Origin: Phormidium ambiguum IAM M-71
GTDB lineage: Bacteria > Cyanobacteriota > Cyanobacteriia > Cyanobacteriales > Aerosakkonemataceae
Length of the DNA stretch: 64,000 nucleotides
Assembly (NCBI RefSeq): GCF_001904725.1
Contig: NZ_MRCE01000026.1
Span: forward strand, 1-64,000
Direction: 5' to 3'
Numbering within the stretch: the first letter of the stretch is position 1; the number at the start of each line of letters is the position of its first letter. The translations under genes and the position numbers were made by a program. The notes beneath the pieces are model-generated. The model worked only from the letters and a program-made list of their open reading frames with translations, was not told where the DNA came from and searched no databases. Shown piece by piece: positions 1 through 63,598 of this stretch.

Positions 1-12
1 CCTTTGTTATGA

Positions 13-420
13 GCTTTGGGAGGGGGATGGATTGGGGTATCTCTGACGCACACCTCTTGGCAGTAGATAACTAAAACCGATAGATAGCTTTGGGAGGGGC
101 ATAGCTTGGGGCTATCTATGACAACATCCTATTGGAGATAGATAACTTAATTCCTTTGATAGCTTTGGGACTGGTATAGCTTGGTTTTGTCTGTGCCTCA
201 TCTCTAGGAGGGGGATAGCTCGGTTTGCTCTGTGCATTAACTTTGGGACTGGCATCAATTAGTTTTGTCTGTGCATTACTTATGGGAGTGGTATAGCTGG
301 GTAAAGGGACGGCTTCAGCTTTGGCGGCGAGATGACTGGCTAAACTGTAATTATTCTTAATTCATCTAGGTAACGAATAAGTATTCAACTCTATGATTGC
401 GGGTGCTTTGGGAGTGGGAT
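13..420. repeat. imperfect tandem repeats around a GCTTTGGGAGGGG core
   Basis: The core GCTTTGGGA(G/C) recurs at 13, 87 and 162, a period of 74-75 bp, each time followed by a version of GGATAGCTTGGGG and a CTATCT/TCTGTG tract. Shorter, more degenerate copies follow near 205, 241, 270 and 405. No convincing reading frame runs through it. It could be decayed iterons or a decayed satellite. Function unknown. Confidence 0.5.
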
Positions 421-460
421 AGAGGGATGTAGATGTAGGCGATCGCTTTTTTGCTCTGAT

Positions 461-560
461 ACTGGCAACTGCTCTGTGTGCCCTATGAACACAATTCTAA
501 CTGCTCTGGAACTGGCAACTGCTCTGTGTGCCCTGCGAACACAATTCTAACTGCTCTGGA
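461..560. repeat. 50-bp tandem duplication
   Basis: Positions 461-510 and 511-560 are the same 50-bp unit, beginning ACTGGCAACTGCTCTGTGTG, and differ at two adjacent bases (TA versus GC in CCCTATGAAC/CCCTGCGAAC). Short reading frames that start inside each copy are a by-product of the duplication. Confidence 0.85.
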
Positions 561-1012
561 ACCCTACTCCGTTCCCCGTTCCCGATTCAGAAACCACCAA
601 ACTATGAAATTAAGTGTAATAAAATTGCGTTTATGGGAAATTATCGGCATTTATGTGAATTTTTACCGACATTTAACTACCATGTTTCGCACATTTTCAC
701 ACTATCAAAAATTTGGCGGATAAAGAGTGATCTTTATGACTCTTTATCTGTCTTTATCTTCTGTTTTCCCAGACTATTCTTTGATAAACTTGGCTCAATT
801 TGACCGAAAAATTTCTTTTTAAGTTTTCCGGTAATGATTGACCTTAATTGGTAATCTTTGGTCATTAAATTCCGAAAAACCTGCTATTTATTGGGGTCAG
901 ATAGCAGCTTTTCTGCACAACTGGTATTAGCTGACAAAAGCTGCTAATTTATTCGAGAATTCCGGTAAATTATCTGAGGTTTTCCCTATTTGTAAACCCA
1001 AGCTAAGGTACA
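561..1012. other. non-coding AT-rich stretch
   Basis: About 450 bases between the 50-bp duplication and the Rep terminator. I see no reading frame with a ribosome binding site, no strong promoter and no long inverted repeat. Confidence 0.5.
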
Positions 1013-1049: not shown

Positions 1050-4000
1050 TTAATCAGGGATTAACTCAAGCAAATATTCGGAATTAACCCAGAACTTCTG
1101 CCCAATGCCATCAACCAAACGAACATAAGTAGCGTCCCAAATTGAGTGGTAGTAGCCATTACCTAGCAAAGTGTACTCACCCCAAAGGAAATACTTCTTA
1201 TCGTACCTATGAAAGTAATGCACCTCGCCAAAACCCTTAAGCTGCTCCGGCGCTGTGGTGTTGGTGGTGGTGGTACTGGCGGTGGTATTGGTAGCGGTGG
1301 TGGTGGTATTGGTAGCGGTGGTGGTGGTATTGGTAGCGGTGGTGGTGGTATTGGTAGCGGTGGTGGTGGTATTGGTAGCGGTGGTGGTGGTATTGGTAGC
1401 GGTGGTGGTGGTATTGGTAGCGGTGGTGGTGGTGTTGGTGGTGGTGTTGGTGGTGTTGGTGGTGTTGCTGGCGCTGGCTTCCTCCACTGGCTTTAACGAG
1501 TCAGCATAGACCTCTACCAAGCCGGAAGGAGAGTAAATAAGCTTAGACTCAGGAGAAAAGCCATCCCCCCCCGACCCCTGGCTTTGAGAGGTATTTTCCC
1601 CGCACCTTCCCCCAGTATTATTATATAAACTAATCGCGGAAGGTGCGGCGGCTGTATCCCTCTGCCCGCAAGGCTTTCCGGCTTCAAACTTCTCCAAAAT
1701 TTCAGCAAATTTTTTGACTTCAGTTTCACTCATTTTCTGGCTGACTCTGGTTGCTATACAGTCCAGCATGGTTGCTCTGATTAGATCGGTGTAAGGAGAT
1801 TCCTTTATCCTGTAGATCCTTTCCTTATCGCCTTCTGATTGCGTAGAAAAGCCTAGCGACCGCAGCAACCTACCTACAAACTCGCAAGGGGTCTGTTTAC
1901 CCACTTTCATTCCTAGCGCCCTGCTAACCTTTGCGCTTTTAGCCTTCTGCCAGATTGCTACAGTATCAGAATCTTGATTTGACCAGTAGAACTTACTCCC
2001 ATCAAAAAACTTGGTAATCCCTAGTTCTAAAAGAGTTTTTACTCTTAACCACTGTGACCTATAGGAAGTAGACAGCTTAAACGGTTTAGGATTTTCGTCA
2101 AACAAACTTTCTAGCGTCCAGTGCCACTTATTTCGTTGGAGTGTTTTAGCTATTTCTGGATTTTTCAAAAAGTACAAAGTTTCCAGATTTGAAATTAATC
2201 TCCGGTCTTCAAAGTAAATTAAATAAATTAATTCAGGATTGAAGATTGGATTTCCTGTGACCTCGTTAATTTTTTGTTCAATTCCAGGTAGCCTATCTAA
2301 AATTCTCCTTCTGACTGCTTTTAACTTTTCTTCGCGTGGTAGTTTTGGGTTTTTGAAAATTTCCTCAGCTTGTTCTGTGGTGACATCTAATGAGTCATGA
2401 ATTAATTCTGAGATATTTTCCTTAACCTCTTTCTCGCGTCGCTTTAAGAAGTCTTCTTGCTTGCACTCGCTGAACAGTGAAACACGATAACCTCGATTAA
2501 CTAAAGATTCGTGCAAGCAATCTCTGAGATTAAACCTTTCGTGATTGGCTATGCTCCTAAGTTCGCATTCAAACTTAAAAAACTCGCTGTTACTGGCTAT
2601 CTCGGTTAGCCTTGCAATGTGTTTCTCCAGTGCCTCCTTAAAGTCCAGTCCGTCAAAGGTTGCGTTAATGCAATCAGCTAAATAAGCCTTGGTAGCCGCT
2701 TCAATTTCGTCCGGGAATGGTGATGTAGAGACTGTGTTGGTGGGATTAGCCACTGTTCTGCAAAAGATGTGTATTAAAGCCTCACTATCCCTCACCCGCC
2801 GCAAAATCTGTAACTGTTCATCTGTTAATAAAACACCACAGAAGTAAGCATAGATGTTTTTAAAGTATCCAGGGATATTGATGTTACCCCCATTCTCAAG
2901 CGATGGAGATAGTAACAGGTAGTCTGGCTTATACTGCAATATCCACTCTTTTGGTGCATCGGCATCTTTTAAAAACTCCTTGACCTCTTCTGTATTGGTA
3001 GTAGAGCTATCGACTCTTAAACCAAACAAACCTTTTTGGATAAGCTGTGACTCTAGAGCCTCTAGGAATATTTGTGAATCTGCAACAACAACAAACGGAT
3101 CGTTTCCTGCATTTCCTAATAAATACCGCAGAAAAACCGACCGATTATTTTGCTTAAGCTCTCCTAACTCTTCAGCCCCAATATAGAACTTAACTTCATT
3201 GGAGGTTAAGGAGTTATCAAGATTTTTAATCTTAATAATCTTCTTATCGATGCCATATTTAACGAATAAGTCACCAACTAATTGTGCGCTTAAGTCTTTC
3301 AAATTCCCATCTAAGCAGATAATTAAGCTGCATCTTCTGAAGGCTTCTATTAGCAATTGCTTGGCTCTTTCTCGCCACTGAGCAATAGCAGTACTAGAAA
3401 ACAATAAATGCTTTATGGTTGACTCGAACTCATCAAGAATTAGACCTTTCCCATCAAAGTATTCTGGTTTAAAGTAGATAATCGAATCAATTGCACAGCA
3501 AATATTAGATTTTGGATCGGCTAACTTTGTTTCTACATCAATCAGGTGAAAGCCGTTTAAATTATTCCCATGCACCAAGTCGTCTTGCAGATGATAAAAA
3601 ATCTCTTCGCTGTGAGAAGATGCCTCACCGCAGAACTGCCGTAATAGTGTGTTTCTAGCGCCAAAAACAATCCAACCTATACCAGGATAGTGTTTGATGG
3701 TTTTGTACACTAAAGTAGTTTTCCCGCTACCCAATCCACCATTGATCATGGTGCAGTAATCGATTTTAGGTACTTCGATTGCATCGGAGATGTAGGGAAA
3801 ATCAATATTAACATCACCGCTAAACCCTTTTTTCTTCCTCCAGTTCTTCCAAGCTTTCTCACTGCGAATTACTTGCTGAACTTCTGGCTGTTTTGTAAGA
3901 TTAAGGAATTCGTAAACACTAATATCTTTAATCTGTGAATAGTCAGTTAACTCGTCAATATCTTGACCATTTTTTGTTACTTGTCCCCACCACTTAATAA

Positions 4001-4988
4001 CAATTCGATATCCCCACTTTCTTAATAAATTGAATGTGGCTGTCAACCTAGCCATCACACCATTATTAAGAATAGATCCGGCATCTGGGTAGACTTCTAT
4101 TGGTTCGTTGATTTCATAATTTACCGAACAATATTCGATAGCTTCTTTAAGCAGATCTGGACTAGCTGCCCACTGCCCACCAGCCGCACCAATCACAATT
4201 TTATTTAAGCGATTAGCCGCTAAGAAAGGCTTAACTCCAGTCCCCTCTACTATTGCAATTCCTGTTGGCTTTCCTATTGGTTTGTGAATTGCTAAAGGTA
4301 ATTGCTTGTTACCATCTGGGTAGACGTGCAGAGTATTTCCTCTTGATGATAGCCAGAGGTATCTGCTACCGTCTAAGGGATTTCTCAACCTGATCTGACA
4401 AGCAAGTATATAACCGTTAACGTCTTTGACTGGTATTAGATAACCTTCTCCAGAATTATACAGTTGCTTGCCTTGGGCGTTTAATCCTGGTAATTTTGGG
4501 TTAACTGCCTTATCTAAAGTGTGGTATTTAGTAACAGATTTGAAACCAGTTCGCTCTATTTCCTCTTCCGTCAGACCACGCCGCAATAAATCAGCCTTAT
4601 CATCAGGATGCAGTGTTAATTGTGCAAGCAATTCCCTGTAACTTTTATCTCTTTCCTCTATGCTTAAGCAGCATTCTTGCTTGGCTTTTTCTTCGTTAAT
4701 TTCTTGCTGCTTTCTAATCTCCCTCTGCCGTTCCCAATCCCGTCGCTTTTCTTCTGTCCACTCGGCTGAGTTATCAATTACCCAAGTTGATGCTGAATAG
4801 GATTTAGTTGGGTCATTTTCTTTAATACATTTATACCCATTAATCACACTTCCTTTTCTGGCATCAAGTTCGGTCATGCACAGGAGTAAATTTTTTCCTC
4901 CATCGTCTTTAGATCTACATTTACCAGATGTATCACCGCAGATTGGGCAAGGATTAATTTTTGAGGTGCGAATATATCCTTTACTCAT
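1050..4988 (-). CDS. plasmid replication protein, CyRepA1-like (zinc finger, DUF3854/TOPRIM-like, helicase)
   Basis: Probable replication initiator/helicase of the replicon, about 1,312 residues. An N-terminal zinc finger (CPICGDTSGKCR, then a Cys about 16 residues on) resembles those of primases. Next comes a TOPRIM-like DUF3854 region (IAIVEGTGVKPFLAA, VYPDAGS), then a P-loop ATPase with Walker A GGLGSGKTT near residue 425 and Walker B LILDEFES near 525. This layout matches the large Rep proteins of cyanobacterial plasmids. A Thr/Asn-rich tail of seven TTTTATN heptads near residue 1,210 precedes a small C-terminal domain. ATG at 4988 is chosen over 5003 because GGAGGTG lies a few bases upstream. 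The ATG overlaps the stop of the preceding gene (ATGA), so translation is probably coupled. Family assignment is by recognition, not search. Confidence 0.8.
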   Translation of the reverse strand: MSKGYIRTSKINPCPICGDTSGKCRSKDDGGKNLLLCMTELDARKGSVINGYKCIKENDPTKSYSASTWVIDNSAEWTEEKRRDWERQREIRKQQEINEEKAKQECCLSIEERDKSYRELLAQLTLHPDDKADLLRRGLTEEEIERTGFKSVTKYHTLDKAVNPKLPGLNAQGKQLYNSGEGYLIPVKDVNGYILACQIRLRNPLDGSRYLWLSSRGNTLHVYPDGNKQLPLAIHKPIGKPTGIAIVEGTGVKPFLAANRLNKIVIGAAGGQWAASPDLLKEAIEYCSVNYEINEPIEVYPDAGSILNNGVMARLTATFNLLRKWGYRIVIKWWGQVTKNGQDIDELTDYSQIKDISVYEFLNLTKQPEVQQVIRSEKAWKNWRKKKGFSGDVNIDFPYISDAIEVPKIDYCTMINGGLGSGKTTLVYKTIKHYPGIGWIVFGARNTLLRQFCGEASSHSEEIFYHLQDDLVHGNNLNGFHLIDVETKLADPKSNICCAIDSIIYFKPEYFDGKGLILDEFESTIKHLLFSSTAIAQWRERAKQLLIEAFRRCSLIICLDGNLKDLSAQLVGDLFVKYGIDKKIIKIKNLDNSLTSNEVKFYIGAEELGELKQNNRSVFLRYLLGNAGNDPFVVVADSQIFLEALESQLIQKGLFGLRVDSSTTNTEEVKEFLKDADAPKEWILQYKPDYLLLSPSLENGGNINIPGYFKNIYAYFCGVLLTDEQLQILRRVRDSEALIHIFCRTVANPTNTVSTSPFPDEIEAATKAYLADCINATFDGLDFKEALEKHIARLTEIASNSEFFKFECELRSIANHERFNLRDCLHESLVNRGYRVSLFSECKQEDFLKRREKEVKENISELIHDSLDVTTEQAEEIFKNPKLPREEKLKAVRRRILDRLPGIEQKINEVTGNPIFNPELIYLIYFEDRRLISNLETLYFLKNPEIAKTLQRNKWHWTLESLFDENPKPFKLSTSYRSQWLRVKTLLELGITKFFDGSKFYWSNQDSDTVAIWQKAKSAKVSRALGMKVGKQTPCEFVGRLLRSLGFSTQSEGDKERIYRIKESPYTDLIRATMLDCIATRVSQKMSETEVKKFAEILEKFEAGKPCGQRDTAAAPSAISLYNNTGGRCGENTSQSQGSGGDGFSPESKLIYSPSGLVEVYADSLKPVEEASASNTTNTTNTTTNTTTTATNTTTTATNTTTTATNTTTTATNTTTTATNTTTTATNTTTTATNTTASTTTTNTTAPEQLKGFGEVHYFHRYDKKYFLWGEYTLLGNGYYHSIWDATYVRLVDGIGQKFWVNSEYLLELIPD
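1283..1440. repeat. 21-bp minisatellite inside the replication gene
   Basis: Seven near-identical 21-bp units (GGTGGTGGTGGTATTGGTAGC on this strand, split here as GGTGGTGGTGGT plus ATTGGTAGC) encode TTTTATN heptads on the minus strand. Being in frame, copy number could change without breaking the gene. The linker is probably flexible. Confidence 0.85.
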
Positions 4989-5269
4989 TTTACACCTCCA
5001 CATAAATCGAGGTGTAATTTATTGGCACAATTTGAGCGACCGGATAAATGGCGATCGCAAATCGATTTTATCTGTCCAAAAATTGAATTATGGTAAAGAT
5101 TACCAAAAGTCTCGCTGTGCGTGTTATAGTTATGGAAGATCTTATTTCTTTTTGTCTCCATAATCACCTCTCTGGGTTTACGGAGCTTAGTATCACCAGA
5201 AATTTTTGGTTGACTTTTTTCGCTCCGACTTAGAGAGGAAATATTTTTTATTGGGGTGTATTTAACCAT
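4985..5269 (-). CDS. small Cys-containing protein of the replication operon (second gene)
   Basis: About 94 residues, family not recognised. It starts at ATG 5269 behind GGTGGAG (a GTG at 5278 is also open) and its stop overlaps the Rep start as ATGA. Its C-terminal third (ICDRHLSGRSNCANKL...LCGG) clearly resembles the end of the preceding small protein (ICDRHLRKCPNCNGWV...CCLGG), so the two look like diverged tandem paralogues. This copy has lost part of the CPNC motif, so metal binding is doubtful. The coupled layout suggests a role in regulating or helping replication; that is inference. Confidence 0.55.
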   Translation of the reverse strand: MVKYTPIKNISSLSRSEKSQPKISGDTKLRKPREVIMETKRNKIFHNYNTHSETFGNLYHNSIFGQIKSICDRHLSGRSNCANKLHLDLCGGVK

Positions 5270-16109: not shown

Positions 16110-17561
16110 TTAATTGAAAACACAATCCACATCAACCACCTGAAAATCACTCTTATAAGACTGGGGAGTAAGAGTATCGATAATATCATCATGTTTCAAC
16201 AGTTCCCCCCTCCCATGACCTAATATTTGCGCCAAATAAAGCTCATTATCAGTATCATTATTATTAAAAACTTGGTTGCAAACATGGGAATAAACCGCCC
16301 TTAAACCCTTATAAGTAAAGAAATCATGGGTAATATTCCATCGCTTCTTTAATATCTTCATAAAATCACTCAAATCCCCACTATAACGCCTGTGTGCTGC
16401 ATCTCCTTTGTTCCTTAACTCAATTTTCACCCTCTCTTCACTCTTAAAACGCCCGTCTTTCTTATCAAAATCAGCTACAGTTTTCCCGTTATCCTTTAAC
16501 CATTGATGAGCTTTTACTATTAAATTTGCCTCAATTAACACCGGAATTAAATACATAGGATATTCTGCAAAGTACTCATCAGCATCCCCCTTAGCTTTTA
16601 ATTGTCCAGTAAACTTAACGTGACTTTTTTTAATAAACTCCTCACTAAATCTTGCTTGTAAGTTCTGCAATGACTCTTTCACAAACTCGCCATACTCACC
16701 ATTTAAAATTAACTCAATATCCCTATCTGTAATTACCTCAAACATAGTAGCACTGCGATGGATTTCTGCTAACCTTCTCCCCGTAACTATTGCCAATGCT
16801 ACTGATACCCGTTTCCAGTCTCTAGCTTTATATTCATCAATTCTATTCAAAGTGGTAACAGCAAAATCATATAATTGTTTAAAGCTAATAATTTCCTTTT
16901 GTTTCTTACGTTGTGCTATCCGCCTTTCCTGTAACCCTTTCTTTTGCTCAGAAACATCAGCTAATTGAATTTTAACCTGACGCTTCAACATTACCAAACA
17001 AGACGATAACTTATCAGCATAAAATGAACCCTGGTCACGTTCATTTTCGATAAATTCAGCGATTAAATTAATAATATGGGTACGGTAACGCAGTTTAGTC
17101 AAAAAGCTTAATTGTTGGTTTTGTTGATTGCCATCATAATTATTCAAGTAGTGAACTATGCGATAAGCAAAGCCAGCGATATCACCATAAACTGAATCAT
17201 CCCATTTACCATCTTTTTGCTGTTTCGATTCAATCCAAGCGTGTAATTCCTGATAGAATTTATGCGTCCACTCCACTAACTTTTCATTACCTAAATTCTC
17301 TGCCCTTTCATTCAATAACTCATCATCAATAGAAATCACTTCTAACGGAACGTTTGGAATTACATTAACCAAAACTCTCTCAGCTTTGGTAGACTCCAGT
17401 AACTCGTTTATCAGTTCGGTTTTACGCTTCCTAGTGGCATTGGGAATAACACCATTACTTAGCTTTTGTAATGCCTTTAATGTGAGATCTTCTAAATCTT
17501 CCTTTGAATATTGGGCTATCTTTTCTCTTTGCTTGGCTTGTTCGCTGGCTGGTAAACTCAT
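16110..17561 (-). CDS. telomere resolvase (protelomerase) candidate
   Basis: About 483 residues from ATG 17561, which follows CAGGTAG (GTG 17573 is also open). The catalytic half reads like phage N15 TelN/TelK-type protelomerases rather than ordinary integrases: SVALAIVTGRRLAEI (Arg 262/263), HVKFTGQLKAKGD (Lys 322 or 324, in the 'FxGQxK' beta-hairpin), FFTYKGLRAVYSHV (Arg 421), LAQILGHG (His 449) and LTPQSYKSDFQV (Tyr 469, presumed nucleophile). These enzymes cut replicated telomere dimers at a palindrome and rejoin strands into covalently closed hairpins. The N-terminal half is helical and unassigned, as in that family. Divergent from the gene at 17749. An unusual tyrosine recombinase is the alternative. 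Recognition is by motif memory. Confidence 0.78.
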   Translation of the reverse strand: MSLPASEQAKQREKIAQYSKEDLEDLTLKALQKLSNGVIPNATRKRKTELINELLESTKAERVLVNVIPNVPLEVISIDDELLNERAENLGNEKLVEWTHKFYQELHAWIESKQQKDGKWDDSVYGDIAGFAYRIVHYLNNYDGNQQNQQLSFLTKLRYRTHIINLIAEFIENERDQGSFYADKLSSCLVMLKRQVKIQLADVSEQKKGLQERRIAQRKKQKEIISFKQLYDFAVTTLNRIDEYKARDWKRVSVALAIVTGRRLAEIHRSATMFEVITDRDIELILNGEYGEFVKESLQNLQARFSEEFIKKSHVKFTGQLKAKGDADEYFAEYPMYLIPVLIEANLIVKAHQWLKDNGKTVADFDKKDGRFKSEERVKIELRNKGDAAHRRYSGDLSDFMKILKKRWNITHDFFTYKGLRAVYSHVCNQVFNNNDTDNELYLAQILGHGRGELLKHDDIIDTLTPQSYKSDFQVVDVDCVFN

Positions 17562-17748
17562 AACTACCTGCACTTAGTTCCTAAACTAAAATTAATCTAA
17601 CCTATAATACCTGCATTTTGTACCTATATTAGTGCTTTTTATAGTACAGAACTGAACTATACCCGTTGCTTATCTGTTGCTTATAGCTCTTGCAGTTATA
17701 TAAGTTAAGAGTTAATGTAAGTACATAAGCTAAGGGAGAGAGACAATC

Positions 17749-18651
17749 ATGATTACACCGACAGAACTTGTCCAAGAATTAAAAAGCGTATCAGACGAAA
17801 AAATTATTAAAGAAATTTGTGCTGAAGTCATGGATCATATATATGAAAAAATATCGGAACCTGATAAGCGAAAAAACAAGTTAGACGGATTTAAAAATCG
17901 GATTAGGAAAGACTTTCCTAGTACGCCCGAACAAGAATTTGATTACCAATATTTCACAAAAAGCGGTAAAGGTAGCGTTCCGAGATGGCAACATTTAGCC
18001 TTAAAATATTTAACACTTTCTGAACCGGACTGGGATGAATTGGGAGACGAAAATCGTCAGCAATGGAAAGCAGAACAAGCTAATATTAAGACTGAATCTC
18101 AATCGGAAATTGAATCAGAATCAAATATGACAATTACTTTAAATTTAGATAGTCAAACCCAATCAATTCTAAATGAAGCAGTGAAGAATTCTGGGTTAAC
18201 TACTACTGATTATATTTTAAAAGCTATTGAGGTATACGCCAAAACTGTAAATAGAAAGAGCAAAAGACAGGATGAAGATTTAAGCACTGTCAGCACTGAG
18301 GAATTGCTAAATGATGGTTTTTACTCTACGCATCCAAACAGGGCAGAGGAACTAGTTAAAAGGGCGATTAGGGCTATCAAAAAGTACAATGGTGAAGTGG
18401 CTACTGAGTCTAAACAACGATGGATTATTACGCAATCTTTGCTGGTGGAATTGACGAAAAGTAGGACGCAATCGGTAGTTGATGCCATGAGTAAGTTTCA
18501 GTCTGATATTGATAACTACAACTATTCAAGAGAAGAGTTTCTTAATAAAGAAGATGGCACACTTAACAAGTATGTGAACCGGAAGAAAGGTGTTGATGCT
18601 AGGGAGGAGATTAATTTGGCTCTCCTTGTACCTAGTGGGATTGATGAGTGA
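17749..18651 (+). CDS. DNA-binding-like protein with a ribbon-helix-helix-like segment
   Basis: 300 residues, ATG behind AAGGGAGAGA. Three parts can be seen. Residues 1-115 are charged and unrecognised. Residues about 126-165 (MTITLNLDSQTQSILNEAVKNSGLTTTDYILKAIEVYAK, quoted in part) have a strand followed by two helices as in CopG/Arc ribbon-helix-helix proteins. A C-terminal domain follows (RAIRAIKKYN..., RWIITQSLLVELTKSRTQSVVDAM), a pattern I associate with cyanobacterial mobile-element proteins. It is transcribed divergently from the telomere-resolvase candidate over 187 bases. It may regulate that gene or bind the same sites; that is inference. Confidence 0.5.
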   Translation: MITPTELVQELKSVSDEKIIKEICAEVMDHIYEKISEPDKRKNKLDGFKNRIRKDFPSTPEQEFDYQYFTKSGKGSVPRWQHLALKYLTLSEPDWDELGDENRQQWKAEQANIKTESQSEIESESNMTITLNLDSQTQSILNEAVKNSGLTTTDYILKAIEVYAKTVNRKSKRQDEDLSTVSTEELLNDGFYSTHPNRAEELVKRAIRAIKKYNGEVATESKQRWIITQSLLVELTKSRTQSVVDAMSKFQSDIDNYNYSREEFLNKEDGTLNKYVNRKKGVDAREEINLALLVPSGIDE

Positions 18652-19083: not shown

Positions 19084-19824
19084 ATGAATAGTCAACAAAG
19101 TGAGTGGATAAAGACCATATTAGCGCTAGTAACTTTTAGCCTTCTGTGGCTATTATATTATGTTTTTCAAAATGTAAAAACCCCGTTTTCTTTTCTGGTT
19201 CAAATGCTTCCTGATTTAGGGGCCGGGCTAATTGTTATAATTGTAGTATACTTCATTTTTACGAGACCAGGAATAATTAATAACGAACAAAATAGTGTTT
19301 TGAATAAAAAAATTAATAATATAAGCAATAAGTTAGATAGCCTCTCAAAAGAAGTATCTTTTATAACTAAAAATATTGGCTGTATTGAAACTGTTCAAGA
19401 TGCGTATTATGAATTTGATTGGTCTAAATTAATAGAACCTGCCGAACAGCAAATAGATATTGTTGTCTATTATTATGATTCCTGGTTTAAAGAGAATCAA
19501 GTTTCATTAGCGAAATTCTTTAGTAAGCCAAATACTAAATTAAGAATAATCTTGAGTAATCCAGATAAGAACAACAATATAGATACTATTAAAAGGTTCT
19601 TTCCAGAGCATAGTGAAACAGCCTTAAAAGAAAAAATAAAAAATACACGAGATAGAGCAGTAGCAACCCTTAATAAAGCTGGTGTACCTCCATCATGCCT
19701 AGAAGTTTATTTATATCCCTATCCTATTAAGAACAATAGCAAAAACCTCAGCCATTTAGCTGAGGCTCTCCTATTTGCAGCAATTAGTTTGGTGTACCAA
19801 AGCGATCGCTCAAGGCTTGGATAA
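19084..19824 (+). pseudogene. membrane protein with phospholipase-D-like domain, C-terminally truncated
   Basis: 246 codons. Two membrane helices (about 10-28 and 40-60), a coiled linker (NNISNKLDSLSKEV) and the start of a PLD-like sensor domain follow (IDIVVYYYDSWFKENQVSLAKFFS, LRIILSNP). After LEVYLYPYPI the family would continue with the second half of the domain. Instead the frame runs on through the parA-operon terminator (19741-19765) and into the antisense of the next gene. The gene was therefore probably cut off near 19730 by a rearrangement. Such proteins often accompany membrane-linked defence, but this copy is unlikely to be intact. Confidence 0.55.
19741..19765 (-). terminator. 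terminator of the parA operon
   Basis: CCTCAGC (19746-19752) and GCTGAGG (19759-19765) form a 7-bp stem, followed on the minus strand by TTTTTGC (19741-19745). It lies 19 bases past the stop of the ribbon-helix-helix gene. Confidence 0.8.
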
Positions 19825-20059
19825 TCACTTCGGTCATTGTCACCCCCTGACGTTTGGACTCTGCTGCCCAGTGCCGCCGTAGGGACTGCGGCACCTTCAC
19901 ACAAAGGTTAACTTCTTTTTCCTTCACTATTTCGGTTTCTGGTGTTTCATCTATCTGGTTTTCTGGCTCTTTGGTTATCTGGTTTTCTGGTTCTCTGGCT
20001 TTCTGGATTAGTGCGCCATACTTTCCTTTAGTTTCAGGTTGCTTACCTTTTTCACTCAT
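19784..20059 (-). CDS. partition partner of ParA, ribbon-helix-helix protein
   Basis: 91 residues. A disordered N-terminus contains repeated EPENQI units (REPENQITKEPENQIDETPETE) and the C-terminal 40 residues are a ribbon-helix-helix: VNLCVKVPQSLRRHWAAESKRQGVTMTEVIIQAL. This is the design of small centromere-binding proteins (ParG/ParB-type of class Ib partition loci), in which the flexible N-terminus stimulates ParA ATPase. Its ATG overlaps the end of parA by 8 bases. The DNA for the EPENQI repeats reads CTGGTTxTCTGG, matching the repeats upstream of parA. Confidence 0.75.
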   Translation of the reverse strand: MSEKGKQPETKGKYGALIQKAREPENQITKEPENQIDETPETEIVKEKEVNLCVKVPQSLRRHWAAESKRQGVTMTEVIIQALSDRFGTPN

Positions 20060-20654
20060 CAGCTAAAACCTCCATAATTTCCTTACCTAAAGCCTGATAA
20101 TCTAGCCAAGCCACACGCGAGCGAGAATCAGAAACATCCCGAATCGGCACACCTTCAAACGCTGCTTTTTGGAACCCAACCGACCTGCGAATCATGGTCT
20201 GAAAAACCGGGATGCCATTGTCCATCAGTTCTTGTCTAATCGCCGCACCTTCCTTGCTGGGTGCAGGCGGGACAATTGCCACTAAAGCCTTATAGTTTGC
20301 CTCCCCTAAATCATTCGCTGTTTTGAGCATCGGTTCTAAGCTAATCACGTCTGGGGTTGTGGGCAGAATCAGTAAATCACAACCCTTTGCCAACTCCTTC
20401 ATGTCGTCGGAATCAGGACGGGCTGGAGTGTCAATCACCACAAAATCCTGTCCCGATATCATCTTCATGGCTTGCCGTTCATCAGCTACCTGGAAAGGGA
20501 ACCGACCTCGTTGTGACCAAGATAGAGCAGTACGATTCGGGTCGCTGTCTACCAAAATTGTTTTGCCTTTGTCACTGAAGTAGGTGGAAATGTGAATCGC
20601 TGTGGTAGATTTCCCCACCCCTCCCTTATAGCCAGTCACAGTTACAATTTTCAT
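20052..20654 (-). CDS. parA: ParA-family partition ATPase
   Basis: 200 residues, the short class Ib form without an N-terminal HTH. Deviant Walker A GYKGGVGKSTTA (residues 8-19), Walker A' ILVDSDPNRTAL (33-44) and Walker B FVVIDTPARP (about 71-80) are intact. It drives plasmid segregation by forming dynamic gradients on the nucleoid together with its centromere-binding partner. It overlaps that partner gene at its 3' end, and repeats that could be the centromere lie just upstream of its start. Confidence 0.92.
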   Translation of the reverse strand: MKIVTVTGYKGGVGKSTTAIHISTYFSDKGKTILVDSDPNRTALSWSQRGRFPFQVADERQAMKMISGQDFVVIDTPARPDSDDMKELAKGCDLLILPTTPDVISLEPMLKTANDLGEANYKALVAIVPPAPSKEGAAIRQELMDNGIPVFQTMIRRSVGFQKAAFEGVPIRDVSDSRSRVAWLDYQALGKEIMEVLADE

Positions 20655-23524: not shown

Positions 23525-24139
23525 ATGAAGATTGACAGGCACGGCAAAGCTAAAATCCTCACCCAGTCTGAAATCCAGCTATTGTTTACCCAAGGGTTAC
23601 AGTCAGACCATGACCGTGCTTTATTTGGCATTTGTTTATTTTCAGCCTGTCGAATCATGGAAGCTTGCACCCTGCTGACTCTCGATGTTTATGACCATAG
23701 TGGCAGAGTCAGACCCACCATGATTATTCGGAAAGCCAATACAAAAGGTAAGCTGGCAACTCGCACCATTCATATAATTGATGACCTGCGACGGTTATTA
23801 GTTAATTACAAACCGAGTCCCGGTCAGCATTACTTATTTCCAGGTCGGTTCAAGGGACACATTGACTCTGACTCAGCCAGTCGCATACTGCGGAAAGCTT
23901 GCTTTAGAGTAGGAATAGAGGGAAGTAGTACCCATAGTTTCAGACGAACTGCTCTAACTATGATGAGTGATTCTGGGATACCGCTAAGAGTAATTCAGGA
24001 GATATCAGGACATAGAAATTTAGAGCAATTGCAGGAATATTTAGAAGTAAGAGACGAACAAGTAAGGGGAGCATTATCAACATTATCGATGCTTTCACCT
24101 GTGCCAGAAGCCGGGAAATATGAGATAAACCTCCTGTAG
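23525..24139 (+). CDS. short tyrosine recombinase (catalytic domain only)
   Basis: 204 residues against about 300 for XerC/D: the N-terminal SAM-like core-binding domain is absent. The catalytic set is present: Arg 43 (SACRIMEA), Lys near 75, HSFR (His 137, Arg 140), His 163 (SGHRNLEQ) and Tyr 172 (EYLEV). It may act in dimer resolution or element integration, with DNA binding supplied otherwise, or be a decayed remnant. Its stop codon lies exactly where a headless gene begins, so the region has been rearranged. The 250 bases upstream contain no clear gene. Confidence 0.75.
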   Translation: MKIDRHGKAKILTQSEIQLLFTQGLQSDHDRALFGICLFSACRIMEACTLLTLDVYDHSGRVRPTMIIRKANTKGKLATRTIHIIDDLRRLLVNYKPSPGQHYLFPGRFKGHIDSDSASRILRKACFRVGIEGSSTHSFRRTALTMMSDSGIPLRVIQEISGHRNLEQLQEYLEVRDEQVRGALSTLSMLSPVPEAGKYEINLL

Positions 24140-40874: not shown

Positions 40875-42575
40875 ATGACGATTCTAATTACCAATATTGG
40901 GACTTCTGATTTAGCTGTAAAAATCAATGGCTTAGACTATTATGTACCAATTTTTGAACGGGATGAACCAAATGAAGAAAAGTCTAGCCTAACTCCTGAA
41001 CAATTAAAGGTTTGGGAACAAAGAAATAAATATATTGCTGAAGGAATTTGTCAGGAACTCAATGTTGCTGTTACAGAAAAGGATAATAAGGGGAAAAAAT
41101 ATTTCGATTTTTCATTTAGAGAGTTAACTGATAAATTACGATCGGCTTACCAAGAAAACCCCGAACTATGGCATTCCCGCATTTGTCCGAGTCGGATTGG
41201 GGGTGCGATCGCACAAGCAAAACAACAGTTTGCTGTTCAACAAGTACATATCTTCGTCACTAATCAAAAACCCCTACATAAGGATGATACCATTTATTTA
41301 TTTGATATCTTAAAAGATTGGTTTCAGAGGGAAATACCAGATATTAAATTAATTTGCGAACAAATACCAGCAGAAATGCCCGCGATCGATCAAGATAAAT
41401 TGTTGGATTATTTCTATCATTTCTTCCAACAAAACATTAGCTATGATTCAACCTTACTAGTTAACATCAAAGGCGGTACGCCTCAGATGCAAACAGCTTT
41501 AAAAATGCAAGCGATTTCTTACCCTACACAGCATTTAATGTTTATCGATCCTCAATTTTCCATCGGTCAAACATTCGCAGGGAAGTTTTCCACTTGCAAA
41601 CGTAATCCTTATTGGCGATATATGCGAGTTCAAAAATATCAGACTGTACAACAATTGTTGGAACGCTGGGATTTTGAAGCAGCAAAACAAATCCTCAATC
41701 AATGGTTGGAAACTTTAGAATATTTTAGCAAGTTCGATATTCTGGATATTGCTGAAAGTCAAAAAACTATTGAAGTAGTTATTCAAGCTTTAGAAATAGC
41801 TATTTGTTATTTCAATTTGGATGATGTTGGCGCAAGAAAAATAATTTTTAGCAATCCTCAACTGGATTCATTCAAGCAGTTTGCTACTAACTATGACAAG
41901 TTACTGAATTTATATACTCAGTGTCGTATTTACTGGGAATTAAACCAAGTGGCTAATTTTTTATCGCGGATGAGTTCATTCTGTGAAGAAACTCTTCATT
42001 ATTTGATTAATAAACTGGGAGGATTAAAATATTTCGATCGGGTCAATTATCCTAATGATTGGTACTTAGATAAAGGCAAAGTAGAAACTCCGCTTTGGAG
42101 ATATTTCGCTAAAAATGAAGAACAGGATAATGAAAAGTTCAAAGATTGGGATTTCCAACGGAAACCAAAATATCGTTTACCGGGACGCTTCAGCAAATGG
42201 AATTTTGTCGATGCGATGATTAGTTTTCGCGATCGCCCTAAAGAAATCCGTTCTTGGGAAGCAATTAGTAATTCTTTAAATCTGTTAGATTATTGGGTAG
42301 ATAAAAGAAACGAGTTAATTCATAGTGCTTCGGGAGTTTCCAAGCAAAGCATGGCAGAATTTTTGGCGAAAGACCGGGAAAATGAGGAGGAACTTATTAC
42401 TTGCGATCGCGATAATATCCTCACAGAAATCACTAACATCGGTCGCCAAACTTCACAACTATTAAATCAAGCAAAAAGTCCCTACATTGGTTTAGATTCA
42501 AATGTAAGATATTATATCTATTCTGATGTCAGAGAGTGGGCGATCGAACGCTTGAAAAAAGATGGATTGCAATAG
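40875..42575 (+). CDS. Csm6-like CARF-HEPN ribonuclease (locus A)
   Basis: 566 residues. CARF domain at the N-terminus (MTILITNIGTSDLAVKING; VHIFVTNQKPLHKDDTIYLF; VNIKGGTPQMQTALKMQA) and a C-terminal HEPN domain with R-x4-H as RNELIH (Arg 478, His 483). Predicted to be switched on by cyclic oligoadenylate and to degrade RNA. It lies 168 bases after cmr6-1A, so it may have its own promoter. Clear paralogue of the protein at 57264. Its stop codon lies in the end of a 71-bp inverted-repeat element. Confidence 0.87.
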   Translation: MTILITNIGTSDLAVKINGLDYYVPIFERDEPNEEKSSLTPEQLKVWEQRNKYIAEGICQELNVAVTEKDNKGKKYFDFSFRELTDKLRSAYQENPELWHSRICPSRIGGAIAQAKQQFAVQQVHIFVTNQKPLHKDDTIYLFDILKDWFQREIPDIKLICEQIPAEMPAIDQDKLLDYFYHFFQQNISYDSTLLVNIKGGTPQMQTALKMQAISYPTQHLMFIDPQFSIGQTFAGKFSTCKRNPYWRYMRVQKYQTVQQLLERWDFEAAKQILNQWLETLEYFSKFDILDIAESQKTIEVVIQALEIAICYFNLDDVGARKIIFSNPQLDSFKQFATNYDKLLNLYTQCRIYWELNQVANFLSRMSSFCEETLHYLINKLGGLKYFDRVNYPNDWYLDKGKVETPLWRYFAKNEEQDNEKFKDWDFQRKPKYRLPGRFSKWNFVDAMISFRDRPKEIRSWEAISNSLNLLDYWVDKRNELIHSASGVSKQSMAEFLAKDRENEEELITCDRDNILTEITNIGRQTSQLLNQAKSPYIGLDSNVRYYIYSDVREWAIERLKKDGLQ

Positions 42576-62191: not shown

Positions 62192-62219
62192 GTAGAGACG
62201 TTATATATAACGTCTCTAC
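62192..62219. repeat. 28-bp perfect palindrome
   Basis: GTAGAGACGTTATA and its exact complement TATAACGTCTCTAC meet without a loop. It follows the cas2C stop and could act as its terminator. It resembles the widespread cyanobacterial GTAGAGACGTT...AACGTCTCTAC repeat. Confidence 0.85.
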
Positions 62220-62527: not shown

Positions 62528-63598
62528 TTACCGCTTCACTAAATAAAGCTGTTTAGTTTCCGGCTTTTCGGTTGATTGCACATTAGCTGGAACTGAGTCA
62601 ACTTGTAACAGCAAAGGACGATAGCGATCGCTATTTCCCAGCAAAAAATTGATATATTCTTTGATTTGTAATTGCAAGCAGTGGCGATAACTTACCGTTC
62701 CGGCGTAGGGGTGAACAATTTGGGTTTGCAATTGATTTTCCCAATGTTGAAAAAATACCTTTAATATCCCTGGATGCAAAGATACTTCGTTGGGTTTTTC
62801 CGTTGGGAGAAAATCACTGGGAGTAATAATTTCTGAAATTGCTAAAAAAGCGACTAATTCATCAATTATTGGGGCGCGAAATTCTGCCATTAAGTCACAA
62901 GCTAAGGGCGATTGATGGCGAGAATTAGTGTAAAGATTTCCCCAGTCGGGATGCAAACCTAATTCTTCTAAGAACATTTCAATGATTTGGTGTAGCAGCG
63001 TGTAACCCAAGTTCAGCAAGCAATTAATTCCATCAGTGGGAGGTTGTTTTCTGCGACCTTTGCAATGAAATCCTTTGGGCAATAATGAGGCTAATGCCGG
63101 ATAATAAAAACTAGCGGCAATTGCTACATACTCCCGCATTTCTTCTAGGGAATTAGCCATTGCTAGGTCATCAATTAACAGCAAGAGAAATTCCGAGGCG
63201 ATTTGAAGAATTGGCGTAAATTTACTGTTCTGTAAGCGTTGCAAAACGATGTAGCAGTTGTGTAGTTTGGCGCGAATGATACTTTCAGCAATTGCCAGGA
63301 CAAATTCGTTGTCTAAGGAGCGTCGTTTTTGGTATTTTAAGCATAAAGGTTGCCGTTTGTGAGAGTGTTGCAATCGTCCTAAGTCTTCTCCTCGATCGCC
63401 AATAAATAAAATGGGAATCTTCCGAAATGTAGCTAAAGATGCCGCTTCACGGGATAGGTAACAGCGACCCCAAAGGATGATTTGACTGACGTTGTTAATC
63501 AGAAATTTTTGCCGCACTTCTTGGCGATCGCACAGAAGTAAATAAGGTGATTTGACTTTGACTTTGATTTGGGTTTCAGTGATGTAAATTGTTGACAT
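62528..63598 (-). CDS. cas1: Cas1 homologue with lost catalytic residues (third module)
   Basis: 356 residues with the Cas1 fold: beta start IYITETQIKVKVKSPYLLLC, central helices, and SPLACDLMAEFRAPIIDEL. A gapless alignment with the locus A Cas1 puts Val 158 (MREYVAIAASFYY) in place of catalytic Glu 156, and Tyr 223 (GNLYTNSRHQ) in place of His 222; only the last acidic ligand (Glu 239) remains. Integration activity is therefore doubtful. It could still bind DNA or Cas2, or act with another Cas1. It is the nearest adaptation gene to array 3. The C-terminus has a 25-residue tail (SVPANVQSTEKPETKQLY). Confidence 0.9.
   Translation of the reverse strand: MSTIYITETQIKVKVKSPYLLLCDRQEVRQKFLINNVSQIILWGRCYLSREAASLATFRKIPILFIGDRGEDLGRLQHSHKRQPLCLKYQKRRSLDNEFVLAIAESIIRAKLHNCYIVLQRLQNSKFTPILQIASEFLLLLIDDLAMANSLEEMREYVAIAASFYYPALASLLPKGFHCKGRRKQPPTDGINCLLNLGYTLLHQIIEMFLEELGLHPDWGNLYTNSRHQSPLACDLMAEFRAPIIDELVAFLAISEIITPSDFLPTEKPNEVSLHPGILKVFFQHWENQLQTQIVHPYAGTVSYRHCLQLQIKEYINFLLGNSDRYRPLLLQVDSVPANVQSTEKPETKQLYLVKR

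Follow-up and report, generated by a model that had tools for sequence, protein, structure and literature searches.

A divergent protelomerase gene on a Phormidium ambiguum plasmid contig, and the probable hairpin ends of its replicon

Results

Gene content of the locus

The window analysed here is a 64,000-nucleotide stretch, bases 1–64000 of the 86,033-base contig C26, from the genome of Phormidium ambiguum IAM M-71 (7.4 Mb, 90 contigs). The features that concern us are listed below by position in the window; A1 is a 16-member family alignment and A2 the alignment that defines the insertions.

1..562, no strand: degenerate tandem repeats, non-coding, at the contig end (sequence of the C26 left end)
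1050..5003, minus strand: CyRepA1-family plasmid replication protein, 1317 aa (NCBIfam NF042913, 277.8 bits, cut-off 200)
16110..17573, minus strand: protelomerase (telomere resolvase) gene (PF16684 match, PDB profile matches, catalytic-domain model)
16155..16157, minus strand: nucleophile Tyr469 in SYKSDF (nearly invariant in A1; aligns with SLSYMTY of TelA)
16215..16217, minus strand: catalytic His449 in LGH (aligns with ILGH of TelA)
16299..16310, minus strand: Lys418-Gly-Leu-Arg421, with Arg421 as the second catalytic Arg (Arg421 invariant in A1; PDB alignment)
16404..16475, minus strand: private in-frame insertion 2, residues about 363–386 (A2; absent from the Argonema orthologue)
16596..16598, minus strand: catalytic Lys322 in the beta-hairpin GQLK (invariant in A1; aligns with GQAK of TelA)
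16641..16739, minus strand: private in-frame insertion 1, 33 residues, 275–307 (A2; absent from the Argonema orthologue)
16773..16775, minus strand: catalytic Arg263, at the position of TelA R255 (invariant in A1)
17749..18651, plus strand: 300-aa divergent neighbour of the protelomerase (adjoins it in Argonema too, 44% identity)
19784..20059, minus strand: small protein, 91 aa, overlapping the end of parA (position)
20052..20654, minus strand: ParA-type partition ATPase (CbiA/ParA, E 1e-12; NF041546 ParA_partition, 88.8 bits, below the cut-off of 180)

The protelomerase open reading frame spans 16110–17573 when read from a GTG start, and the ATG at 17561 gives a protein of 483 aa. The replication protein belongs to CyRepA1 by the NF042913 cut-off, and its closest relatives are encoded on protelomerase carriers such as Nostoc pNPM10, Fischerella p4, p6 and p7, Tolypothrix unnamed12 and Calothrix p8, as well as on the enzyme-free Crinalium p04. 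CyRepA1 and ParA are thus both encoded on C26, so the plasmid context that a sequence-only reading of this DNA had drawn from a Rep protein and parA was right. The 91-aa protein, for which Pfam returned no match, is presumed from its position to be the partition partner of ParA, and the product of 17749..18651, with a weak match to the repressor family PHROG 876, is possibly a DNA-binding regulator. The cumulative GC skew of C26 is lowest at 17,664, a position that separates the protelomerase gene from this divergent neighbour, which would fit an internal origin; this reading is only suggestive because gene orientation switches at the same point.

The C26 plasmid carries a heavy load of defence genes, among them those of a type I restriction system and of two type III-B CRISPR loci, together with a reverse transcriptase-Cas1 and a DruE helicase of the Druantia type. 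The defence span covers 29527–58976 and 62528–63598 of the window and runs on to 84053 of the contig. Several Cas1 genes accompany the two type III-B (Cmr) loci, and the RT-Cas1 fusion lies at 65873–67882, a CARF-HEPN effector at 40875–42575 and the DruE-type helicase at 73058–79399. Among the subset of C26 open reading frames scanned, no housekeeping gene and no capsid, tail or terminase gene was found.

Identity of the enzyme

The proposal of a telomere resolvase had been based on a set of motifs (ALAIVTGRRLAEI, FTGQLKAKGD, YKGLRAVYSHV, LAQILGHG and SYKSDF), all of which are present, and the profile score places them beyond chance. Pfam analysis revealed a match to PF16684 (ResT-TelK_cat) of 85.4 bits (E 4.5e-24) against a curated cut-off of 27, and no match to the tyrosine integrase family PF00589 at E up to 1. 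When a profile built from A1, with the C26 protelomerase at its head, was compared with the PDB, only protelomerases were returned (TelA 4.8e-33, TelK 1.1e-28, ResT 1e-12). Structure comparison agreed: the catalytic-domain model (mean pLDDT 67) gave significant fold matches only to TelA (4e0z, 5.7e-5; 4e10, 1.4e-4), with the next-best match at 1.6 and no ordinary integrase. The full-length model, built from 3 sequences (pLDDT 56), was of low confidence, and its fold search was uninformative.

The catalytic set of these enzymes, Arg, Lys, (Lys/His/Tyr)-x-x-Arg, His and Tyr, is present as R263, K322, K418-x-x-R421, H449 and Y469, and all of these residues are also kept in the orthologue from Argonema antarcticum. 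The residue changed in PDB 4e0j, the R255A variant of TelA (PMC3558466), corresponds to Arg263, and Lys418 occupies the position of Tyr363 described in TelA (PMC3558466). The two private insertions, both inside the catalytic domain, could impair the enzyme; a search of the host genome found no second copy of either. The C26 protein is almost certainly a protelomerase. It is a divergent new member of a cyanobacterial family that is itself already in RefSeq, where many of these proteins bear the name 'protelomerase family protein', and its score against the TelA equivalog NF052462 (22.4 bits, cut-off 800) places it outside that equivalog. Two PHROG families with unnamed function, 5272 and 26709, match the C26 protelomerase, Fischerella p8 (L034:17657-19075) and Fischerella p6 (L111:2240-3382), and can likely be named as protelomerase families.

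Relatives and distribution

The only close relative found is encoded on the Argonema antarcticum contig NZ_JAIQZN010000092 (57–64% identity); beyond Argonema, the viral and genome collections yielded none. A second Argonema antarcticum relative, on G074:C188, is frame-broken. In a tree of 49 cyanobacterial members, the C26 and Argonema proteins group with Fischerella p6, the Fischerella p8/Tolypothrix pair and the C70 group (support 0.73–0.97). The enzymes of Tolypothrix unnamed12, of contig C70 in the host genome (G000) and of contigs C31 and C81 in the sister genome G125 are all part of this grouping. All tree groups around the C26 protein contain replicons with fold-back or inverted-repeat ends.

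The enzyme class had been called very rare, which is wrong for cyanobacteria: about a quarter of the sampled genomes of class Cyanobacteriia (99/390) contain a family match, and the host genome alone gives 7 PF16684 hits. These 7 hits represent about six genes, because those on contigs C74 and C62 appear to be two parts of a single gene broken by the contig boundaries, and the host perhaps holds one copy per linear replicon. The outer ends of C74 and C62 match each other in inverted orientation (97% over 81 bases), with the protelomerase gene split across the inner ends, and the two are probably a single linear plasmid of about 44 kb.

Ends of related replicons

In the host genome, C70 (16,002 bases) has perfect 54-base palindromes at both tips together with a 681-base terminal inverted repeat. 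In the sister genome, the tips of C31 (85,325 bases) are palindromes of 68 bases, and its inverted repeat measures 4,928 bases. C81 shares the core of C31 in a palindromic tip of 126 bases, and the 72-base tip of C337 has a different core. Only 2 of the 62 readable contig ends examined in the host genome are palindromic, both of them in C70, and the background rate is low (of 20,000 positions drawn at random from C26, 2 begin a palindrome of at least 16 bases). The ends of C89 and C90, which also looked palindromic, were rejected as masked Ns. Assemblers are commonly run with k settings of 55 and 127, for which k-1 is 54 and 126; tips of 54 and 126 bases are therefore expected where an assembler walks round a hairpin.

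Similar ends were found in other cyanobacterial protelomerase replicons. Gloeocapsa PCC 7428 pGLO7428.02 (G102:C5; 201,822 bases) was deposited as linear, and it shares with G067:C6 (270,008 bases) a common telomere core and inverted repeats of 1.3–1.4 kb. Around this core the palindrome measures 36 bases in one of the two assemblies but 126 in the other; a fixed palindrome would not vary with the assembly in this way, whereas a hairpin would be expected to. Plasmids 4, 6, 7 and 8 of Fischerella NIES-4106, all deposited as circular, have exact terminal inverted repeats of 2828, 2213, 1491 and 186 bases, and a fold-back palindrome of 8.25 kb is present in Tolypothrix PCC 7712 unnamed12, likewise deposited as circular. 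The tip at which Nostoc C052 pC052_H folds back is nearly identical in sequence to that of the published hairpin plasmid pNPM10, and an inverted repeat of 1.1 kb occurs in Chondrocystis plasmid 5. The replicons with matching ends range from 16 to 270 kb in size. In pANACY.06, a further protelomerase carrier deposited as circular, a 438-base stretch close to the start of the record is flanked by inverted arms of about 0.4 and 0.22 kb. Most of the circular-deposited records with such ends (Fischerella p4, p6, p7 and p8, unnamed12 and pANACY.06) are probably linear.

Neither fold-backs nor terminal repeats were found in four plasmids that lack the gene and come from these strains or related ones (Fischerella p3 and p5, Nostoc pNPM6 and Crinalium p04). 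Terminal repeats are also absent from the carriers G135:C3, G175:C2, Calothrix p8, a 13.8-kb Gloeothece plasmid and others, which may be trimmed, circular or integrated. Two larger contigs have long inverted structures. In the 1.55-Mb contig G664:C1, both arms of a perfect palindrome around position 916522 are 9.5 kb or longer, and each contains a protelomerase gene; the palindrome stops short of the contig end and could be the telomere fold-back of a very large linear replicon. The protelomerase carrier G793:C1 (497,759 bases) is flanked at its two ends by inverted repeats no shorter than 5.9 kb and is likely a half-megabase linear replicon.

Ends of contig C26

The sequence-only reading had also proposed that the replicon may be linear with hairpin ends; such a form is well supported for relatives, by their palindromes and inverted repeats, but was not observed on C26. 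The ends of C26 carry no terminal palindrome, no terminal inverted repeat and no direct (circular) overlap, and the telomere patterns of relatives, searched for in the host genome, gave none belonging to C26. The tandem repeats at its left end, of which the host genome holds no other copy, resemble the repeated subtelomeres of relatives and may, by analogy, have a comparable role. The right end stops in a 55-base repeat edge common to the right end of contig C38, which looks chromosomal (it carries leuS). C26 thus stops short of any telomere, and the contig is therefore incomplete.

Two candidates for its telomeres were discarded. The 55-mer common to the right ends of C26 and C38 was dropped as a terminal inverted repeat, since C38, with leuS, is chromosome-like. 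Perfect, near-identical internal palindromes at 64087–64118 and 62192–62219 (GTAGAGACGTT...AACGTCTCTAC) were rejected as telomeres, being two similar copies of what is probably a dispersed repeat.

Discussion

Interpretation and alternatives

The explanation that we consider likely is that the gene encodes an active protelomerase and that its replicon is a linear plasmid, 86 kb or more in length, whose covalently closed hairpin ends are resolved by its own enzyme. This explanation rests on relatives: they occupy linear hairpin-ended plasmids, and therefore the C26 plasmid is probably linear too, mainly because the replicons of its tree neighbours have fold-back or inverted-repeat ends. By analogy with them we infer that the C26 enzyme is active and has a cognate telomere, and that its replicon is linear. 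On this model, CyRepA1 would start replication within the molecule and the forks would travel round the hairpins to form a circular head-to-head dimer, in which each joined telomere would be a perfect palindrome. Two protelomerase molecules would cut both strands there via Tyr469, and the cut strands would be refolded and resealed to yield two unit-length linear plasmids with hairpin ends, which ParA would then segregate.

It is unlikely, though it deserves weighing, that the protein is a true protelomerase relative whose present copy is a relic, or whose plasmid is circular or integrated into the chromosome, so that the gene no longer maintains telomeres. The bare ends of C26, the repeat edge that its right end shares with chromosome-like C38, the two private insertions in the catalytic domain, the frame-broken second Argonema copy and the relatives on contigs without terminal repeats all point this way. 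Against it, the frame is open and every catalytic residue is kept, CyRepA1 and ParA lie on the contig, the scanned open reading frames include no housekeeping genes, and the sister replicons are linear.

An N15-like plasmid prophage, which would make virions and have hairpin ends only in the prophage state, is very improbable. N15-type elements combine a protelomerase with a large replication protein. CyRepA1 and the C26 protelomerase match phage families (PHROG 4913 and 5272), and a phage origin has been suggested for the Nostoc linear plasmids (PMC5987646). Against this stand the lack of capsid, tail or terminase genes among the scanned subset of C26 open reading frames, a cargo of restriction-modification, CRISPR and other defence genes, and the near absence of relatives in viral contigs. 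That the protein is instead an integrase or dimer resolvase of the ordinary tyrosine recombinase type, serving a circular plasmid, is scarcely credible. Such enzymes share their active site with protelomerases, and plasmid-borne integrases are common (a real one, with PF00589, lies at 23525–24139 in the window), but this reading is already contradicted by the presence of PF16684 instead of PF00589 in the C26 protein and by PDB sequence and fold matches to protelomerases only.

Implications

Hairpin telomeres are usually regarded as peculiar to Borrelia, Agrobacterium and a small number of phages. The occurrence of the family in 99 of 390 genomes and the matching ends of replicons of 16–270 kb suggest that they are a routine form of cyanobacterial plasmid, and that some plasmids that databases label as circular are linear. 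We would give even chances to a broader picture, in which the host genome is Borrelia-like, with several linear plasmids that each have a protelomerase specific to their own telomere, and in which such replicons are common across cyanobacteria and in many cases filed as circular. Varied enzyme-telomere pairs would help in work on the evolution of specificity and in the production of hairpin-capped DNA. Cyanobacteria were already mentioned among hairpin-telomere hosts (PMC3558466), hairpin-ended plasmids had been inferred in one Nostoc (PMC5987646) and RefSeq had named many of the proteins; less known, in the open-access literature, are the presence of the family in about a quarter of sampled cyanobacterial genomes and the roughly six copies in this host.

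Comparison with known systems

Plasmids pNPM8-10 of Nostoc sp. N6 have terminal inverted repeats, with hairpins inferred from reads in a paper that does not name a telomere resolvase (PMC5987646). Like C26, they carry a RefSeq 'protelomerase family protein' and a related replication protein; unlike in C26, the Nostoc enzyme belongs to another subfamily, and the Nostoc telomere tip is AAATTAACRGAC. For the linear element of Anabaena variabilis (NC_014000), no hairpin evidence was reported (PMC4148955). The Argonema antarcticum contig has a close orthologue beside the same divergent neighbour, differs in that its enzyme has neither insertion, and also lacks its own ends.

TelA of Agrobacterium (PDB 4dwp, 4e0z and others) shares the catalytic domain and residue set with the C26 enzyme and is its best sequence and fold match, whereas the C26 enzyme has Lys418 at the Tyr363 position, a different N-terminal half and a plasmid location, TelA being chromosomal. 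TelK and TelN of phages phiKO2 and N15 resemble it in the profile match to TelK (2v6e) and in the pairing of a protelomerase with a large replication protein; unlike them, C26 has no virion genes among the scanned open reading frames and no close phage relatives. ResT of Borrelia has the same Pfam domain and serves a genome with several linear replicons, which the P. ambiguum genome may also have. Borrelia uses one telomere resolvase, whereas the genome of P. ambiguum encodes about six protelomerases.
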